A DNA stretch of 64,000 nucleotides, taken from the NCBI GenBank assembly GCA_001797675.1, contig MGQB01000023.1, positions 1 to 64,000 on the forward strand, read 5' to 3'. Positions 19,506 to 62,195 of this stretch are shown piece by piece. Position 1 is the stretch's first letter; every line of letters begins with the position of its first letter. Source of the stretch: Deltaproteobacteria bacterium RBG_13_43_22 (GTDB lineage: Bacteria > Desulfobacterota > RBG-13-43-22). The translations under genes and the position numbers were made by a program. The notes beneath the pieces are model-generated. The model worked only from the letters and a program-made list of their open reading frames with translations, was not told the DNA's origin and ran no database searches.

Positions 19506-20040
19506 TTGATAAGACTTTTTTTTGATGGGAAGAGGTTAAAATAAGAAAAAGAGCAAGGCAAGGAGAAAAATAGGGCCAAAGGCAATGGGACAAAGGGGAT
19601 CTTCTGGTGAAAAAGGGAATTTGGAAGGCCGGGTTAAAAAATAAAAAGCAATACTCCCTTTAACTCCCGATCTTCCTTCCTCTCAAGGATTCGATTTATC
19701 GGCAGAAATCCTTAAATCCTGTATAAAGGCTTCCTTATTGAAAGGAAGCTGGGAGTCCGAAGAAGTCTATCTAAAGTTTGAGAGATTTGGGTTTGGGTGG
19801 GGGTCTCTGATTGTTTTTCCATAAACCCAAGTGACCTAAGATCTTGTCAATCACTTCCTGGTCTTCTATAATACTGATAATACACATCAGCCTTTGGCAT
19901 TTGGGGCAGGTCAGGGGGTCCACTTCATATATTTTCTGAATCAATCTCGCCCAATTCCGGTTGGATTTGGCATTTTCATCCGGTTGTATGACACAGGGGA
20001 TGAGGTGATCCTGATTTTCCTTTATTCATGCTCGGGCTTA
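19506..20040 (-). mobile_element. IS91-type element, 3' end remnant, copy 1
   Basis: On the minus strand about 19785-20020 encodes the C-terminus of an IS91-type rolling-circle transposase: NWARLIQKIYEVDPLTCPKC followed by QRLM, an acidic IIEDQEVIDKIL helix and LGHLGLW. The frame is broken by a TAG where copy 2 has CAG, and by a one-base shift. Downstream about 280 bases of non-coding end sequence finish at a TTGATAAGAC word (19506-19515). The same end is found at 22284-22735. Upstream of about 20040 the transposase frame is lost. The rest of the gap to 20337 shows only a weak 26-codon frame at 20232. Confidence 0.8.
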
Positions 20041-22283: not shown

Positions 22284-22735
22284 TTGATAAGACTTTTCTT
22301 TTGATGGGAAGAGTATAAAATAAGAAAAAGAGCAAGGCAAGGAGAAAAAAAGGGCCAACAAAGACAAGGAGGCCGAGGGGGTCTTCTGGTGAAAAAGGGA
22401 CTTTGGAAGGCCGGGTTTAAAAAATAGAAAGCAATACTCCCTTTAACTCCCGATCTTCCTTCTCTCAAGGAGTCGATTTATCGGCAGAAACCCTTAAATC
22501 CTGCATAAAGGCTTCCTCATAGAAAGGAAGCTGGGAATCCGAGTAGTCTATCTGAATTTCGAGGGATTTAGGTTTGGGTGGGGGTCTCTGGGCAGTTTGC
22601 CATAAGCCCAGGTGCCCTAAAATCTTGTTAATCACTCGTTCGACCTTGAGGCTCACGAGAGGTTCCTGGTCTTCAATAATACTGATAATCCGCATCAGCC
22701 CTTGGCCTTTAGGGCAGGTCAGGGGAAAAGGAGGA
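22284..22735 (-). mobile_element. IS91-type element, 3' end remnant, copy 2
   Basis: This segment is a direct repeat of 19506-19930, with small indels. On the minus strand 22465-22735 reads LTCPKGQGLMRIISIIEDQE, then KILGHLGLW and a Pro-rich tail, the C-terminus of an IS91-type transposase. One zinc-ligand Cys of the CPKC motif is changed to Gly, and nine residues are inserted before KILGHLGLW. The element end abuts dtd codon 18. The upstream transposase is missing, so the copy cannot move on its own. The remaining 124 bases to 22859 show nothing. Confidence 0.8.
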
Positions 22736-33959: not shown

Positions 33960-36170
33960 CTAATTAATAAAACTATATAAAATGTTAATATCTTTAATAT
34001 TATAATTAAATACAGCAAGAAGCTCATGTACAGCCTTAAAAAGCAGATTAATGTATTTTTTTGAATCATACTCCTCATCTCCGTGTAAAAAAGGAGCAGG
34101 AAGTACCCTTTGCTCAGGGCAATAAGGGGACGATTTCTCAGCTAAAAGATAACCGACCTTCTGACCCGGATAAAGGGTTATTCCGACCGATTCGAGTTGT
34201 TGTAGAACAAGGGATGTGGGCGTGTTCACCCTGTATTCTTCCACAGACTTACCTACACGACGCTTGATAACCAGATCAAGAGGATTAACCTGACCTTGTT
34301 TTAAATACATTACATATTCCTCAAGACGGTCGAAAATCTCCGGTATCTGTTTTTCAATGCCCAAGCGGTCCTTGCCTATGGCCAAGATCAGCAAAAGGTC
34401 TTTTTGGGCTTCTTTGATGAACAAGGGGGTGTCCCGGCGACAGCAATCGATTCCTCGTATTTTGACGGTCCCGTCATTAAAAAGTCCGAAATATCGGTTG
34501 GCTACCGGTCGATCGGAACGGACCTTTGAAGGAAGAAAAACGATCCAATGATAGATCCCTTCCAAGCTGATGGGCACCCCGGTCCGGCAGTGGATCTTGT
34601 CCAGGAGAATCTTCATATTCTCCGATGTCACTTCCGGTCCGCTGATCCAAAGGGCATCCGTAAGGCCGTGAAGAACCTGGAACCCGTGTTCCTCCGCACA
34701 TTCTTTGGCCGAAAGAAGCTTGTCCCGGCCGAAAGCGGTGATGGCCTCATGGGCTTCGATACAGCCGAAACGGGCGTTTTTGTATCCCATGTACCCGAAG
34801 CAGGTCACCAGCATCCATTTAAGGGCCTTTTGCATGCAACCATAGCGGGGTTTTTCCGGGTGCCCTGCCCTGCTCCGGGCCTTGAGCTCGGCCCGAAGTT
34901 TAAGGATCGGCTCCAGAGTTTCCGGCACCAAGCCCTTCCGTTTGCGGCAGATGTTGTAGCCTGCCTCGGGAACAACGGGTTCTGGACAGCAACGGCACAG
35001 CATAGTCTCAGGAGAGATGTTATGTTGAACCATGATATTGGGATACATGGAAACAAAGTCGATCTCGGCCACCTGCTCCCATAGCCCGATAGGGGGCTGA
35101 AGAACCAGCCCCCCCTTATCCGCCACCAGGAGGTCCCAGGCGGTCTTAAAGGTTTCAGGGCGACCCTTTTTCCAGGGAATGAGGATTCCCTTTTGAACGG
35201 CTCGATCCAGTTGCATGGAAGTGATGGCCGTGCCCGGTGTGGCCCGGGCCAGGGTCTGAACCGGCAGTCCGGTCAGCCGGGAGAGAAAAAGGATTCCATC
35301 CAAACCGGATTCCCGGAAGAAAAAGGAGTTTTCCTGATCCACATGCAGCCGCCCATAGAAGGGGAAGGCGGTGCTTTGATACAGGACCTGGCCATAGGAA
35401 AAATAAGAGCGCCCCTGCCCTACCCGCACCCGGCCGGGAGGATGGGGATCCCGATCCAGAGCCAAGGAGACCTTTGTCTTTTTAACCGAATGCCAAAGGA
35501 AGGGAAAGATTCGAGCATCTCCATGTCGAGATAGAATAAGATCCGGATCATAATCGACCAGGAAGCGGTTCAAAGCTTTTAAAAATTCAGTTATGTCAGA
35601 GGCTTCCAGATCGAAAGAGGCCCCCTCGCTAATAATCCGAAGGGAATTCCCCCGGTCCAGGGGGATCTGGGGATGACCCGTCAATTCTATTTCCAAAATT
35701 TTAAAGTCCGGGAGACTGGCATCCGGATCCCAGGGGGAATCCAGGACCGTGATCCCTTTCAAGGCCGTCCTTTCCCATTCGATTTCACAGGAACATAAAG
35801 GGAACAGGTCTTTCTCCCAGGCATAATACTGGGGAATACCCAGATCGCAGTTGTAAAAGGTGAGGTCCTCCCAGCCGGTGCTGATCAGCCGAAGGACCTC
35901 GGGCTGTTTTTCCAAAGAACGGAGGGTTATTTTCAGTACGGGAATTACCTCCCCGCTCCAGAACTCCGTCCGTCTGGTCCAGTCCGCATGGCGGATATAA
36001 GGGGCCAGCTTTTTTACCAGGGCCTGTAGGACCGGCTTGGGACCCTGGGCATAAAAACGGTAGCTGAAGGAATCGGTCAGCCGAAGAAGCTCTCCCGAAT
36101 CAAACCGGAACCAGAGGACCATGACGTCCCCATGAACATATAGATCCAACAGCCAGCCGCGGGAGATCAT
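33960..36170 (-). CDS. family-B DNA polymerase, divergent, exonuclease motifs degenerate
   Basis: The 736-residue protein has PolB motif A at residues 371-389 (DFVSMYPNIM, Asp371 as metal ligand), motif B at about 448-469 (KWMLVTCFGYMGYKNARFG), motif C as HGLTDALW at 501-508 and a KRY-like NRYFG. In motif C the canonical YxDTDS has lost its first Asp (Leu503) but keeps the second (Asp505). In the exonuclease region the ExoI DIE is replaced by EIE (near 160) and the ExoII Asn...Asp positions are changed (about 212-224), so proofreading is probably lost. It is shorter than E. coli Pol II (783). The last residues are A/T-rich and odd. It is the distal gene of the lexA cassette. Confidence 0.85.
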   Translation of the reverse strand: MISRGWLLDLYVHGDVMVLWFRFDSGELLRLTDSFSYRFYAQGPKPVLQALVKKLAPYIRHADWTRRTEFWSGEVIPVLKITLRSLEKQPEVLRLISTGWEDLTFYNCDLGIPQYYAWEKDLFPLCSCEIEWERTALKGITVLDSPWDPDASLPDFKILEIELTGHPQIPLDRGNSLRIISEGASFDLEASDITEFLKALNRFLVDYDPDLILSRHGDARIFPFLWHSVKKTKVSLALDRDPHPPGRVRVGQGRSYFSYGQVLYQSTAFPFYGRLHVDQENSFFFRESGLDGILFLSRLTGLPVQTLARATPGTAITSMQLDRAVQKGILIPWKKGRPETFKTAWDLLVADKGGLVLQPPIGLWEQVAEIDFVSMYPNIMVQHNISPETMLCRCCPEPVVPEAGYNICRKRKGLVPETLEPILKLRAELKARSRAGHPEKPRYGCMQKALKWMLVTCFGYMGYKNARFGCIEAHEAITAFGRDKLLSAKECAEEHGFQVLHGLTDALWISGPEVTSENMKILLDKIHCRTGVPISLEGIYHWIVFLPSKVRSDRPVANRYFGLFNDGTVKIRGIDCCRRDTPLFIKEAQKDLLLILAIGKDRLGIEKQIPEIFDRLEEYVMYLKQGQVNPLDLVIKRRVGKSVEEYRVNTPTSLVLQQLESVGITLYPGQKVGYLLAEKSSPYCPEQRVLPAPFLHGDEEYDSKKYINLLFKAVHELLAVFNYNIKDINILYSFIN

Positions 36171-36218
36171 TAAACAGATTGCTCCGTTAGCATGTTTTGT
36201 TTGTTTAAAAAATGGATG

Positions 36219-36536
36219 CTACACTTCCGTTATACAAGGTGTCAAAGGGATGTTGTGAAAATCTATCAGACCTGGAAATGCGTGTGTTTTGTAAAACCTC
36301 TCGCTGAGCGGGCTGTTCGAAAATTCAGCCAGCAGCAATCCCCGGAACAGCGTCCTCGGCCTTCGGGCTAACCATTTATGGATGGTAATGATGGGTCGGT
36401 AATTCTGATGAATCTGCTTTTCCCGCAGGGGCAGATCGGCAATAAATGACATGTTGAAGTTTTTTTCAATCATGGGATTATTATTCGGTATGCGTATAGC
36501 CAGACTGTTTCCCCATTTCTGTATTCTCGTTTTCAT
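36219..36536 (-). pseudogene. chimeric relic: MazE/AbrB-type antitoxin N-terminus joined to DUF1156 methylase N-terminus
   Basis: From ATG 36536, behind a good TAGGAG, the frame reads MKTRIQKWGNSLAIRIP, the swapped-hairpin antitoxin start, and then passes directly into MIEKNFNMSFIADLPLREKQ and HKWLARRPRTLFRGLLLAEF, the start of DUF1156 DNA methylases. Both pieces are cut short, and the reading ends after about 105 residues, whereas DUF1156 proteins run to many hundreds. The relic separates polB from the rest of its cassette and occupies the gap 36171-36623. Confidence 0.75.
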
Positions 36537-36623
36537 ATTTGCTCCTATAGCGATAGTATCTACAATGATGATACATCCTGAATAAAAATTTCTCACAAGA
36601 ATAGTCTGTTTTTAAAGATTGCT

Positions 36624-36911
36624 TCAGTCGTTCCGAGGTGAGTGGATATACCTTTTATCCTCTTCCAACTCCTTCAGTTTCTCCCGCAAAGCGGCCAGGG
36701 CCTTTTCCTCTTCGATCAGGATTGAGATCAGGATGGTTTCCAGGGGCCAGGGACGGGAGGCATAGACCCCGGCCTGGACATGAAGGCGAGCCAGGTCGAA
36801 CAGCCGATCCAGAACCGCCTGATCTTCCCGGCGCAGACCCCGGCGGAATTTCTTCCAGTCGGCGTATTCCCGTTCCAAAACCTGACTATAGGGCAGGACC
36901 GTGCGTCCCAT
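36624..36911 (-). CDS. small uncharacterised protein of the lexA-polB cassette
   Basis: The 95-residue protein starts MGRTVLPYSQVLEREYADWK, then has helical, charged sequence with KFRRGLRREDQAVLDRLFDL, and ends in a coiled-coil-like EEEKALAALREKLKELEE. I recall similar small proteins in deltaproteobacteria, but no function. ATG 36911 follows AAAGGA and is preferred to 36968. It lies between the RecA-fold gene and polB, all on one strand, so it may be a polymerase or ImuA-like partner. That is inference from position. Confidence 0.65.
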   Translation of the reverse strand: MGRTVLPYSQVLEREYADWKKFRRGLRREDQAVLDRLFDLARLHVQAGVYASRPWPLETILISILIEEEKALAALREKLKELEEDKRYIHSPRND

Positions 36912-37123
36912 AGTATCCTTTACCTTAAAATTCGAAGTCCAAAGCACGAAAGCCGAAACAAATCCCAAATCCTAATGTCCAAATGACCCAAACAAGACTT
37001 TTCCCCTTGCCCCCTTTCACTTTTCAGCAACTTAGTATGACACTCTTTTGAAAATTCGGGATGAGGGATTTTTTTTCAGGGCTGCCAACCCAAAAACCAT
37101 AAACTACGACCCCTGTTTTCGTC

Positions 37124-37726
37124 TTAAACCCTGTTCCCTTGAATCCTTTCCCCATCGAATCCTGCTTTCAGGAGTTTTCCTTCCAACCCATCTTTCCCCA
37201 AAGCGACCCGGACAACCCATTGAACGGAGTTGGAGAGTTCCCGTCCGAAATGCCGGTTTTTTACCTGTCGAGAAATGGGACCTTGAAAAAGATAATACCC
37301 CTGCCCTTTTTCTTTTAAAGCGATCAACGAGCGGACTACCTGATGAAAAAGGGCCTGCCTTTCTTTTAAGGAGACTTGTTCGTCATAGAAAAGAATCCCT
37401 GGTCCTAGGATAAAAAGGGGGCCTTCAGCCCTTTGGCCCGGAAGGGTCTCACAGAGCAGGGTTACCAGTTGGTGACAGGTAAAGGCCCTACTGAGACGGA
37501 TCCGTTCTAGAAGGATACGTGGGGAAGTTCCCGACAAACGGCCCACCCTGGCCACCAAATAGGGATCAAAGGATTGCGTGGCGTCCACCAGGGTAATGGA
37601 TTTCCCCTGCAGCGACAACTGGCCCATCAGGTAAGCTGAAAGACGGGCCATGGCTTCTCCGAAAAAGAGGATGCCGCCTCCCGAAAGGGCCAGAGACCGC
37701 ATCTTGTGCCAGGGGAGAACATCCAT
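37124..37726 (-). CDS. RecA-fold protein without P-loop (ImuA/RadB-like accessory)
   Basis: The 200-residue protein resembles the core of RecA/Rad51 paralogues: a first strand with SGGGILFFGEAMARLSAYL at the P-loop position, LVDATQSFDPYLVARV, the SRAFTCHQLVTLL segment like RadB, and FILGPGILFYDE as a Walker B-like strand. The Walker A Gly-Lys-Ser/Thr is absent, so ATP binding is doubtful. It begins 9 bases after the lexA stop with AGGGGGG as ribosome binding site. ImuA, the RecA-like partner of mutagenic polymerases, holds the same place in lexA-imuA cassettes, which suggests a polymerase-loading or filament-binding role here. Confidence 0.7.
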   Translation of the reverse strand: MDVLPWHKMRSLALSGGGILFFGEAMARLSAYLMGQLSLQGKSITLVDATQSFDPYLVARVGRLSGTSPRILLERIRLSRAFTCHQLVTLLCETLPGQRAEGPLFILGPGILFYDEQVSLKERQALFHQVVRSLIALKEKGQGYYLFQGPISRQVKNRHFGRELSNSVQWVVRVALGKDGLEGKLLKAGFDGERIQGNRV

Positions 37727-37735
37727 TTTACCCCC

Positions 37736-38347
37736 CTACCCTATCTCCATCGGACGATAAATCCCGATAACTTTGCCCAGGATACTTATGGTTGATAAAT
37801 CCCTGCCTTTCAGGATCAGAGGAGGAAATCCCGGGTGTTCCCCCTTTAAGATGATTTCATCTTTCTCTTGATAGAACCGTTTCAAGGTGATTTCCTCTCC
37901 GACACGGAAAACCCCTACGGCCCCCTGGGGGAGATGATCCTGACGGCGGACAATAACCTGATCCCCGGTTAAGATATAAGGGCTCATGCTTTCTCCCCGT
38001 ACCCGGAGAAGAAAGACTTCTGCTCCCCTGGCCCAGGTTTCCGGAAGGGAAACATATCCTTCGGCGGCTTCCTCTATCTGCCGGGGATCTCCGGCAGGAA
38101 TGGCCCCATAGAGGGGAACGGTACGCAAAGGCCCGGGAGAAGGGATCAGACGAAGTCCGCGTGAGCGGTTGACTTCCCGGCGCAGGTGTCCTTTTCGAGC
38201 CAGAGCCTTCAGATGGTCCTGGACGGTACCCAGGTTGATCTTGAAATAACCGGCCGTTTCCCGGAAAGAAGGGGGGTAGCCGTGTTCCGCCTGGTAATCC
38301 CTGAGATATTCCAATATCTCTTTTTGCCGAATCGTCAGTGTCTGCAT
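37736..38347 (-). CDS. lexA: LexA repressor
   Basis: LexA represses DNA-damage genes and is inactivated by RecA-stimulated self-cleavage. The 203 residues have an N-terminal winged helix (TIRQKEILEYLRDYQAEHGY then SFRETAGYFKINLGTVQDHL), a cleavage site at Ala85-Gly86 (AIPAGDP), the catalytic Ser120 (RGESMSP) and Lys156 (ITLKRFY). All parts needed for self-cleavage are intact. ATG 38347 (MQTLT) is chosen because the longer frame to 38386 would cover the promoter and operator. It leads a cassette with the RecA-fold gene 9 bases downstream. It is likely autoregulated through the palindrome at 38364-38379. Confidence 0.94.
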   Translation of the reverse strand: MQTLTIRQKEILEYLRDYQAEHGYPPSFRETAGYFKINLGTVQDHLKALARKGHLRREVNRSRGLRLIPSPGPLRTVPLYGAIPAGDPRQIEEAAEGYVSLPETWARGAEVFLLRVRGESMSPYILTGDQVIVRRQDHLPQGAVGVFRVGEEITLKRFYQEKDEIILKGEHPGFPPLILKGRDLSTISILGKVIGIYRPMEIG

Positions 38348-38357
38348 GGTACCGAAC

Positions 38358-38386
38358 CAAATACCATACATTTGTATGGATGTCAA
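38358..38386 (-). promoter_or_regulatory. lexA promoter with LexA-type operator in the spacer
   Basis: On the minus strand TTGACA (38386-38381) and TATTTG (38363-38358) are separated by exactly 17 bases. The spacer is almost filled by CCATACATTTGTATGG (38379-38364), a perfect 16-bp palindrome. A repressor bound there would cover both promoter elements. The start codon is ten bases further on. The motif differs from the E. coli box CTGT-N8-ACAG. Confidence 0.8.
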
Positions 38387-59657: not shown

Positions 59658-60836
59658 TTATTTTCTTTCCAATATCATCGCCGCGCCCATACCCCCACCG
59701 ACACAAAGTGTGGCCAAACCGAGGGTAACATTTCTTTTCATCATTCCATAAAGCAAGGTAATCAATATCCTGGCCCCGCTGGCCCCGATCGGATGCCCCA
59801 GGGCAATGGCCCCGCCGCTGATATTGACCTTGTCCAACGCCCAGCCCATCTCCCGATTGACCGCCACTGCCTGGGCGGCAAAGGCCTCATTGGCTTCAAT
59901 CAGGTCCAGATCCTTCACCAAAAGTCCGGCTTTCTTCAAAGCCTTTCTGGAGGCCGGGATCGGTCCGGTGCCCATAATTGAAGGGTCCACACCGGCCGTA
60001 GCATACGAACGAATGGTTGCCAAAGGCGGAAGCCCCATTGCTTTGGCCTTATCCAGAGACGTGACTACTAAAGCCCCTCCCCCGTCATTTATACCCGAGG
60101 CATTGCCGGCAGTCACAGTTCCATTATTTTTAAAAGCCGGTTTAAGCCTGGACAGATCTGCCAAAGTCGTGGCTCGTGGATGTTCGTCGGTATCAAAGGA
60201 GATGGAATCCCCTTTTTTTTGAGGAATCGGGACGGGAACAATTTCGTCCCTAAACCTGCCTTCGGCCTGGGCTTTCAAGGCATTTTCCTGGCTTCGCAAG
60301 GCCAACCGGTCTTGATCTTCCCGTGAGATTCCAAATTGTTCGGCTACCTTTTCAGCAGTAATGCCCATATGGACCTGTCCGAAAACATCCTGGAGCCCAT
60401 CATAGATCATCAGGTCCACCAATTCACTGTTGCCCATTCGGGATCCCCACCGTGCTTGCCTTAAAGCATAAGGGGCCTGACTCATGCTTTCTATTCCCCC
60501 GGCGACCACCATATCGGTATCACCGGATAGAATCGCCTGAGCCGCCATCATAACTGATTTCAAACCGGAAGCACAGACCATGTTGATGGTCGTTGCCGGA
60601 ACTTCCCTGGGAATTCCGGAATGAATCACCACCTGCCGGGCCGGATTCTGTCCCTGTCCGGCTTGGAGAACATTGCCTAAAATAACCTCTTCAACCATTT
60701 CCGGAGGAAGCGACGCTCGTTTTAAGGCCTCCTTAACGGCAATAACTCCTAATTGCACTGCGGAAATATCTTTCAGACCCCCTCCGAACCGTCCTACCGG
60801 AGTACGGGCCGCACCAACGATGACTACCTCTTTCAT
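59658..60836 (-). CDS. acetyl-CoA acetyltransferase (thiolase) 1
   Basis: The 392-residue thiolase cleaves 3-ketoacyl-CoA with CoA or condenses two acetyl-CoA. It has the nucleophilic Cys in [14 protein letters not shown] (about residue 88), the NEAFAAQ motif, [16 protein letters not shown] with the catalytic His, and the second Cys in [12 protein letters not shown]. All four are intact. It starts after AAAGGAGG. With the adjacent dehydrogenases it completes a beta-oxidation set. A second thiolase lies upstream at 61014. Confidence 0.95.
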
Positions 60837-61013: not shown

Positions 61014-62195
61014 TTACACTTTTTCCACTATCAGACTGACTGCTTCTCCCCCCCCCAGGCACAACGAAGCCATCCCTCTTTTGGCCCCCCGGTTTTTCAT
61101 GGCATAGAGAAGAGTGACCATGACCCTGGCCCCGCTGGCCCCGATCGGATGCCCCAGGGCCACTGCACCCCCATGGATATTGACTTTCTCGGGATCGAGC
61201 CGTAGTTCATTGATGACTGCCACAGTCGAAGCAGAAAAGGCCTCATTGACCTCTTGGAGGTCAATGTCGTGAATGGACAAACCGGCTTTTTTAAGGACCT
61301 TGGGAATGGAAAGTAGAGGGGCCACCAAAACATACTTGGGGTCCAAGCCCGAAGAACCCTGAGCCACTACCCGGGCTATAGGGGAAAGGCGATATTCCCT
61401 GACCTTGCTCCCGGACATTAATACCACGGCGGCGGAACCGTCACTGAGCTTGGAGGCATTCCCGGCTGTAACCGTGCCGTCTTTTTTAAAGGCCGGTTTT
61501 AATTCAGAGAGGGCCTCCAGGCTGGTTTCCCTTATTATTTCGTCCTGGTCAAAAACTAGGGACTCTTTTCCCTTTCGCGAAATGGAAATCGGGAATATCT
61601 CTTCTTTAAATTTTCCTTCATCCCTGGCCCTCAAGGCCTTTTGATAGGAGTTATAGGCAAACAAATCCTGCGCTTCTCTGTTTACCCCATATTTCTCTGC
61701 GCAGAATTCCGCACTGACACCCATCAAAAAATCATTATTAATATCCCGCAAGCCGTCGTGATCCATGGAATCGATAAGGACTCCGTTTCCCATGCGATAT
61801 CCGGTACGAACCTGTTCCAAATAGAAAGGGGCTTGAGTCATATTTTCCATCCCGCCGGCTACCACCACATCAGCATCTTTCAGAGCTATCGCCTGGGCCG
61901 CTAACATGACGGCCTTCAATCCAGATCCGCAGACCTTATTCACGGTAAGGGCTCCCGTTTCATAAGGGAAACCGGCTTTGAGCATGGCCTGACGAGCTGG
62001 ATTCTGACCCAGACCGGTGGGCAGAACATTCCCCATAATGACTTCATCGACCTGCTCTTTGACCAAGTTGGCCCTGTTAAGGGCCTCATTGATGACCATG
62101 GCCCCCAATTCGGTGGCCTTTAGGGCACTTAAATTCCCATTAAATGCCCCAACAGGAGTTCTTACACCGCTGACGATATAAACTTCTTCCAGCAT
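61014..62195 (-). CDS. acetyl-CoA acetyltransferase (thiolase) 2
   Basis: The 393-residue thiolase has the same four catalytic landmarks as copy 1: Cys in [13 protein letters not shown] (about 88), [24 protein letters not shown], and Cys in [13 protein letters not shown]. The start at ATG 62195 (MLEEVYIV) follows AAAGGA and is preferred to TTG 62201. It is the first gene of the acyl-CoA block. Two thiolases side by side suggest different chain-length preferences. Confidence 0.94.

Follow-up and report, generated by a model that had tools for sequence, protein, structure and literature searches.

PolB2 genes of bacteria have been reported to be linked to an inactivated radA gene and to a gene for a protein of arCOG07300. 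The linkage extends to lexA in some bacteria, a four-gene locus in Leptospirillum being cited (Makarova et al., 2014, PMC4104785). The two partners were named iRadA and PPB2 by Timinskas et al. (2025, PMC11791011), who met no bacterial gene order other than iRadA-PPB2-PolB2, saw lexA enriched nearby, and modelled a PolB2-iRadA-PPB2(3) complex (a heteropentamer) with Rad51-like docking; PolB2 is bacterial group G2 in a 2026 survey (PMC12926913). Archaeal PolB2 is described as an error-prone extender needed for targeted mutagenesis (as cited in PMC11791011 and PMC12926913). The lexA-iRadA-PPB2-polB2 operon is already published, and the locus described here, in a 64,000 nt stretch of contig MGQB01000023.1 of Deltaproteobacteria bacterium RBG_13_43_22 (the window), is a new example of this system and not a new system, because its four genes match those described. 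Very probably it is a PolB2 operon of the bacterial kind, encoding a translesion-synthesis complex (mutasome) and controlled by its own LexA. An earlier note, made from the sequence of the window alone, had suggested that the system might be unnamed, which the lexA link noted in 2014 and the partner names of 2025 contradict.

The genes lie on the minus strand in the order lexA, iRadA, PPB2, polB2 within positions 33960-38386 (Table 1), and all four have intact open frames. lexA and iRadA are separated by 9 bp (37726/37736), and the later gaps are larger, being 212 bp between iRadA and PPB2 and 453 bp between PPB2 and PolB2; the earlier note had correctly described both this spacing and the set of genes, as lexA, a RecA-fold gene, a small protein gene and a PolB gene on one strand. 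The window was scanned for tRNA genes and against Rfam and gave no match.

The operon LFML04_0990-0993 of Leptospirillum ferriphilum resembles the locus in its four families, their order, the MGRT arm, the loss of the first Asp of DxD, the dead exonuclease and the P-loop-less RadA (PMC4104785, PMC11791011), but the window has in addition a scar of foreign genes in the PPB2-PolB2 gap and a nameable dyad operator in the promoter spacer. The PolB2/Dpo2 operon of the Sulfolobales shares PolB2, the RadA-like iRadA and PPB2 (arCOG07300), whereas archaeal PolB2 neighbourhoods are enriched in orc1/cdc6 homologues and not, as in bacteria, in lexA (PMC11791011). Escherichia coli Pol V (UmuD'2C-RecA) is likewise a mutasome of several proteins, one of them from the RecA family, under SOS control, and its architecture was judged in silico to be similar to that of the PolB2 complex (Timinskas et al., 2025, PMC11791011); it differs in having a Y-family polymerase and in that RecA is an active recombinase, in contrast to the dedicated dead paralog of the PolB2 mutasome.

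The polymerase and its linkage to PPB2

With E about 3e-78, archaeal PolB structures were the nearest solved ones to PolB2. When PolB2 was aligned with a PolB from Pyrococcus, the exonuclease motif residues proved to be lost, which bears out the earlier description of a polymerase without proofreading motifs. Motif C in the window reads LTD instead of DTD, the first Asp of DxD being gone, and LTD or ITD, in the context H[GA][LI]TD, was found in all eight of the PolB2 homologues compared. The homologues retain the second Asp of motif C and, in the motif A region, D[FY][VA]SMYP, and PolB2 identity among family members is 62-75%. A Y[FM][ST]YG segment is conserved ahead of the D(K/R) position in seven full-length homologues and could be the Rad51-like docking strand of Timinskas et al. 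The PolB2 of one relative (G047, L021:9009-11447) has the C-terminus APRQLRLWGEG, which resembles a beta-clamp-binding motif; the window PolB2 has no such motif.

Conservation was assessed in a phylum sample of 395 genomes. PolB2-type polymerases were detected in 50 genomes and PPB2 in 47, and 46 contained both (46/50 and 46/47; Fisher p about 3e-54, uncorrected for relatedness), a co-occurrence that far exceeds chance. Eight weaker polymerase matches (E 1e-52 to 1e-65) all came from genomes without PPB2, and the sole PPB2 genome with no PolB2 match was G002, in which the contig stops inside inserted genes. No relative was recovered when genome contigs were scanned with PolB2 as the sole query. 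Where both genes were on one contig and strand (41 genomes), the PPB2-PolB2 gap had a median of 155 bp and was below 700 bp in 38. The order lexA-iRadA-PPB2 was present in 23 of 30 PPB2-anchored loci, these being all the loci with lexA visible; the remaining seven showed no lexA over the stretch examined, several of these stretches ending at a contig edge. The earlier note had staked its reading on the genes being neighbours in related genomes, and this proved to be the case.

The residues lost from motif C and the exonuclease could also be those of a decaying remnant, with a dead polymerase in an operon disrupted by the insertion between PPB2 and PolB2. The foreign scar at this junction fits such decay, as do relatives in which PolB2 and PPB2 are on separate contigs (G001), lie 10.4 kb apart (G004) or in which PolB2 gave no match (G002), but decay is very unlikely given the four open frames in the window, the family identity of PolB2 with motif A and the second Asp of motif C retained, the parallel retention of PPB2 and iRadA, and the PolB2 of S. 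islandicus, which has IID at the motif C place and is active (PMC11791011).

The accessory proteins

Comparison of iRadA with Pfam and NCBIfam gave nothing above the cut-off. The protein has no Walker A motif (GGGILFFGEAMARLS), and neither P-loop nor Walker A was found in any aligned homologue covering the region, in agreement with the earlier description of a RecA-fold protein lacking the P-loop. A profile from nine iRadA homologues matched RadA, Rad51 and DMC1 structures (best E=4.7e-8), and the invariant RAFTC-Q block aligned with the ARAF..HQ segment of RadA. An AlphaFold2 model (mean predicted local distance difference test, pLDDT, 84) was compared with the PDB by Foldseek, and the best 50 matches listed were all Rad51, RadA, DMC1 or Rad51-paralog complexes. 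The 200-residue protein derives from RadA/Rad51, having neither the ATPase residues nor the N-terminal helical domain, and is not an ImuA homologue. Homology to ImuA or SulA, with which the earlier note had proposed a structural comparison, was rejected on the blank Pfam and NCBIfam searches together with the profile and fold matches to RadA/Rad51.

The lexA-imuA-imuB-dnaE2 cassette resembles the locus in its LexA link, RecA-fold accessory and error-prone polymerase, whereas the window has a B-family polymerase, a RadA-derived accessory and no Y-family ImuB, and the parts are not homologous one by one. That PolB replaced DnaE2 in a true ImuA-ImuB-DnaE2 variant, the 200-residue protein being its ImuA, can be dismissed as highly improbable: the shared logic (lexA first, a RecA-fold accessory, an error-prone polymerase last) and the RecA-related nature of ImuA count for it, but the accessory matches RadA/Rad51 by profile and fold and not RecA, ImuA or SulA, the cassette has no ImuB-like, Y-family or C-family gene, the one Y-family (IMS) match in the genome, which is 85% complete, is on a different contig, and every cassette protein matches the PolB2 operon of archaeal origin. 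By descent the cassette is very probably no such variant, but its way of working is probably similar. The earlier phrase, a PolB version of the SOS mutagenesis cassette, is therefore a fair functional description of a conserved LexA-linked cassette with a polymerase without proofreading and a P-loop-less partner; the ImuA-type kinship that it carried does not hold, the accessory being RadA-derived.

PPB2 was also compared with Pfam and NCBIfam and gave nothing above the cut-off. Its N-terminus, MGRTVLP, was invariant in 9/9 homologues; MGRT is the PPB2 signature and forms the N-terminal arm, which in the predicted trimeric, helical protein bridges PolB2 and iRadA (PMC11791011). By these residues the 95-residue protein is identified as PPB2, and in place of the loader or clamp adaptor proposed earlier it is a predicted PolB2-iRadA bridge and not a clamp loader. 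Upstream of PPB2, at 36915-37020, there is intergenic text of the type GGATTTGTTTCGGCTTTCGTGCTT, possibly a dispersed repeat; similar text is found upstream of lexA in G083, G318 and G149.

LexA and its probable promoter

The sequence features expected of a LexA-controlled SOS unit are present, with a probable operator in the promoter. LexA matched PF01726 (E=2.9e-17) and PF00717 (E=2e-24) in Pfam and TIGR00498 in NCBIfam (159 bits, cut-off 111), and the self-cleavage residues were identified by reading, namely the Ala-Gly site (IPAGDP), the Ser (GESMSPY) and the Lys (ITLKRF). The earlier note had extended lexA to 38386, where an upstream TTG would overlap the promoter and operator; the ATG at 38347 is the likely start.

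A promoter layout of TTGACA, 17 bp and TATnnn was found upstream of lexA in five f1 genomes, the family of the window, and in several genomes of f8, f7, f19 and f51. The -10 element of the window (TATTTG) is weak against the consensus, and the promoter was not listed by a generic promoter scan. The spacer contains the dyad CCATAC-AAAT-GTATGG, which matched once in the window and in none of 100 shuffles; the 16 bases are identical upstream of lexA in 5/5 f1 genomes (G000-G004). In other families the dyad is rebuilt in the promoter spacer with different letters, for example CTCATC-AAAT-GATGAG. Several f8 members have TTGACAA-CTAAACAAATGTATAG-TAT and two f19 members TTGACAA-CTCATCAAATGATGAG-TAT upstream of lexA, this spacer also carries related dyads in f7 and f51, and f27 has a dyad of a different kind (TATGTAT...ATACATA). 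No such dyad lay within 130 bp of the lexA start inferred for some f8 and f19 members, and either a misplaced start or loss of the site would explain this. The f19 and f1 dyads differ at matched positions in both half-sites, which would support a real operator. On these data the dyad is a probable LexA operator.

Other candidate sites were sought. The only other exact CATAC-N4-GTATG in G000 falls within an open frame, and the recA and dinB loci of the window's own genome, as fetched, contained no TAC-N4-GTA core. An operator search allowing two mismatches gave a match frequency close to that of the control, the two closest matches lying inside open frames and not in promoters; a degenerate promoter plus operator search of the same genome with three mismatches gave matches near the level of the backward-pattern control and was uninformative. 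In G000, G001, G003 and G004 the search turned up one LexA each; in G002 a complete copy lies at one end of a contig and a partial one at the beginning of a second contig.

In an undamaged cell, LexA bound to the dyad in the promoter spacer would hold the operon off. DNA damage would lead to RecA-stimulated self-cleavage of LexA and to synthesis of iRadA, PPB2 and PolB2. iRadA, lacking the ATP-binding loop, would dock on PolB2 much as neighbouring Rad51 subunits dock on each other, a PPB2 trimer would insert its N-terminal MGRT arm into the PolB2-iRadA cleft and lock there, and the complex would extend mismatched or lesion-terminated primers with no proofreading. The present analysis shows which genes are there and in what order, the family of each protein, the lost exonuclease and P-loop residues and the conservation of the dyad. 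For the activity, mismatch extension, damage induction and complex, the scheme draws on published models and on work with archaeal relatives, the only organisms in the cited literature for which polymerase activity and damage induction have been shown (PMC11791011, PMC12926913); LexA binding to the dyad and induction are what we infer for this bacterium.

Genes inserted between PPB2 and polB2

The 453 bp gap contains an open reading frame that the earlier note did not mention. It matched MazE (E=0.009) and DUF1156 (E=1.1e-4) in Pfam, and in it the first part of a MazE-like antitoxin runs into an N-terminal fragment from a DUF1156-type methyltransferase gene. It was rejected as a fifth cassette gene because it is a patchwork of such fragments. 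The frame is 69-76% identical over 70-77 aa to intact genes that lie beyond PPB2 in G002 and, in G004, in the interval separating PPB2 from PolB2.

In G004, where PPB2 and PolB2 share a contig and a strand with PPB2 upstream, the interval holds a PIN-domain gene beside a short antitoxin-like frame, a DNA methylase-SNase protein, a GMT-wHTH protein (TcmP-like by reading), and DUF5131, ASCH, large methyltransferase, HepT and GyrI-like genes. PPB2 is followed in G002, up to the contig end, by PIN, TcmP-like, DUF5131-like, DUF1156-methylase, RlaP, AlbA, ParA and Fic genes, and in G001 by PIN, GmrSD and other genes, with PolB2 behind a Y1 transposase on its separate contig. These toxin-antitoxin and restriction-type genes are no part of the mutasome. 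The simplest reading would be that a defence-type island was inserted in the family ancestor and later mostly deleted in the window, whose gap has just the fused fragment.

Table 1. Features of the PolB2 locus in the window and of the corresponding junction in three relatives.
Feature	Position	Strand	Remarks
lexA	37736-38347	-	203 aa from ATG, MQTLTIRQ...; SOS repressor with DNA-binding and self-cleaving S24 peptidase domains
iRadA	37124-37726	-	200 aa; RadA/Rad51-fold protein without P-loop
PPB2 (arCOG07300-like)	36624-36911	-	95 aa from ATG; helical, N-terminal MGRT arm
Scar open reading frame	36219-36596	-	125 codons; MazE-like and DUF1156-type pieces; outside the mutasome
PolB2	33960-36170	-	736 aa; B-family translesion polymerase; PF00136 E=2.4e-30
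Probable cassette promoter	38358-38386	-	-35 TTGACA 38381-38386; 17-bp spacer; -10-like TATTTG 38358-38363
Probable LexA operator	38364-38379	none	CCATAC-AAAT-GTATGG; fills the promoter spacer
Inserted genes downstream of PPB2 in three relatives	L046:5400-12500 with L016; L043:1389-9900; L045:2283-4800		PIN/VapC-type, TcmP-like, DUF5131, ASCH, DUF1156-methylase, GmrSD, AlbA, Fic and HepT genes; contents differ

Elsewhere in the window, a block of ~400 bp is present in two diverged copies (about 82-94%; 19516-19917 and 22295-22725) at a spacing of ~2.8 kb (direct repeats D2, D4-D8), and a repeat that is 78% identical (59741-59834 and 61097-61190) may belong to two neighbouring paralogous genes.

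Several points weigh against a working, LexA-controlled PolB2 mutasome in the window. The long PPB2-PolB2 gap with its foreign scar makes co-transcription as far as PolB2 less certain here than elsewhere. We know of no measured activity for any bacterial PolB2 and of no bacterial PolB2 mutasome that has had bench study. A beta-clamp motif was not clearly visible by eye in the C-termini of the window iRadA or PolB2. At the D(K/R) motif, which contacts the PPB2 arm (PMC11791011), the D is kept, and the window reads DQ, as does G001, where most aligned PolB2s (G004, G011, G047 and G048) read DR; G030 reads DA.

A broader and more doubtful proposal is that the f1 LexA, the only one found, may have little to control beyond the operon of its own mutasome, that the operator may drift between families in step in both half-sites, and that defence-type genes may have landed repeatedly at the PPB2-PolB2 junction, where the polymerase could then be uncoupled from its partners. 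With a genome that is 85% complete, and with degenerate operators easily overlooked, the one-operon SOS response is unproven. Two features are possibly new: the dyad operator in the lexA promoter spacer, as the available parts of the published surveys give no concrete LexA operator for bacterial PolB2 mutasomes, and the history of inserted genes at the junction.

The window provides a further, well-supported example of a bacterial PolB2 mutasome, together with a testable candidate LexA operator. The genes inserted between PPB2 and PolB2 indicate that the parts of the mutasome are separable yet kept. If this LexA does control only its own mutasome, these bacteria would be a clean system for studying a dedicated mutagenesis switch without the wider SOS response.

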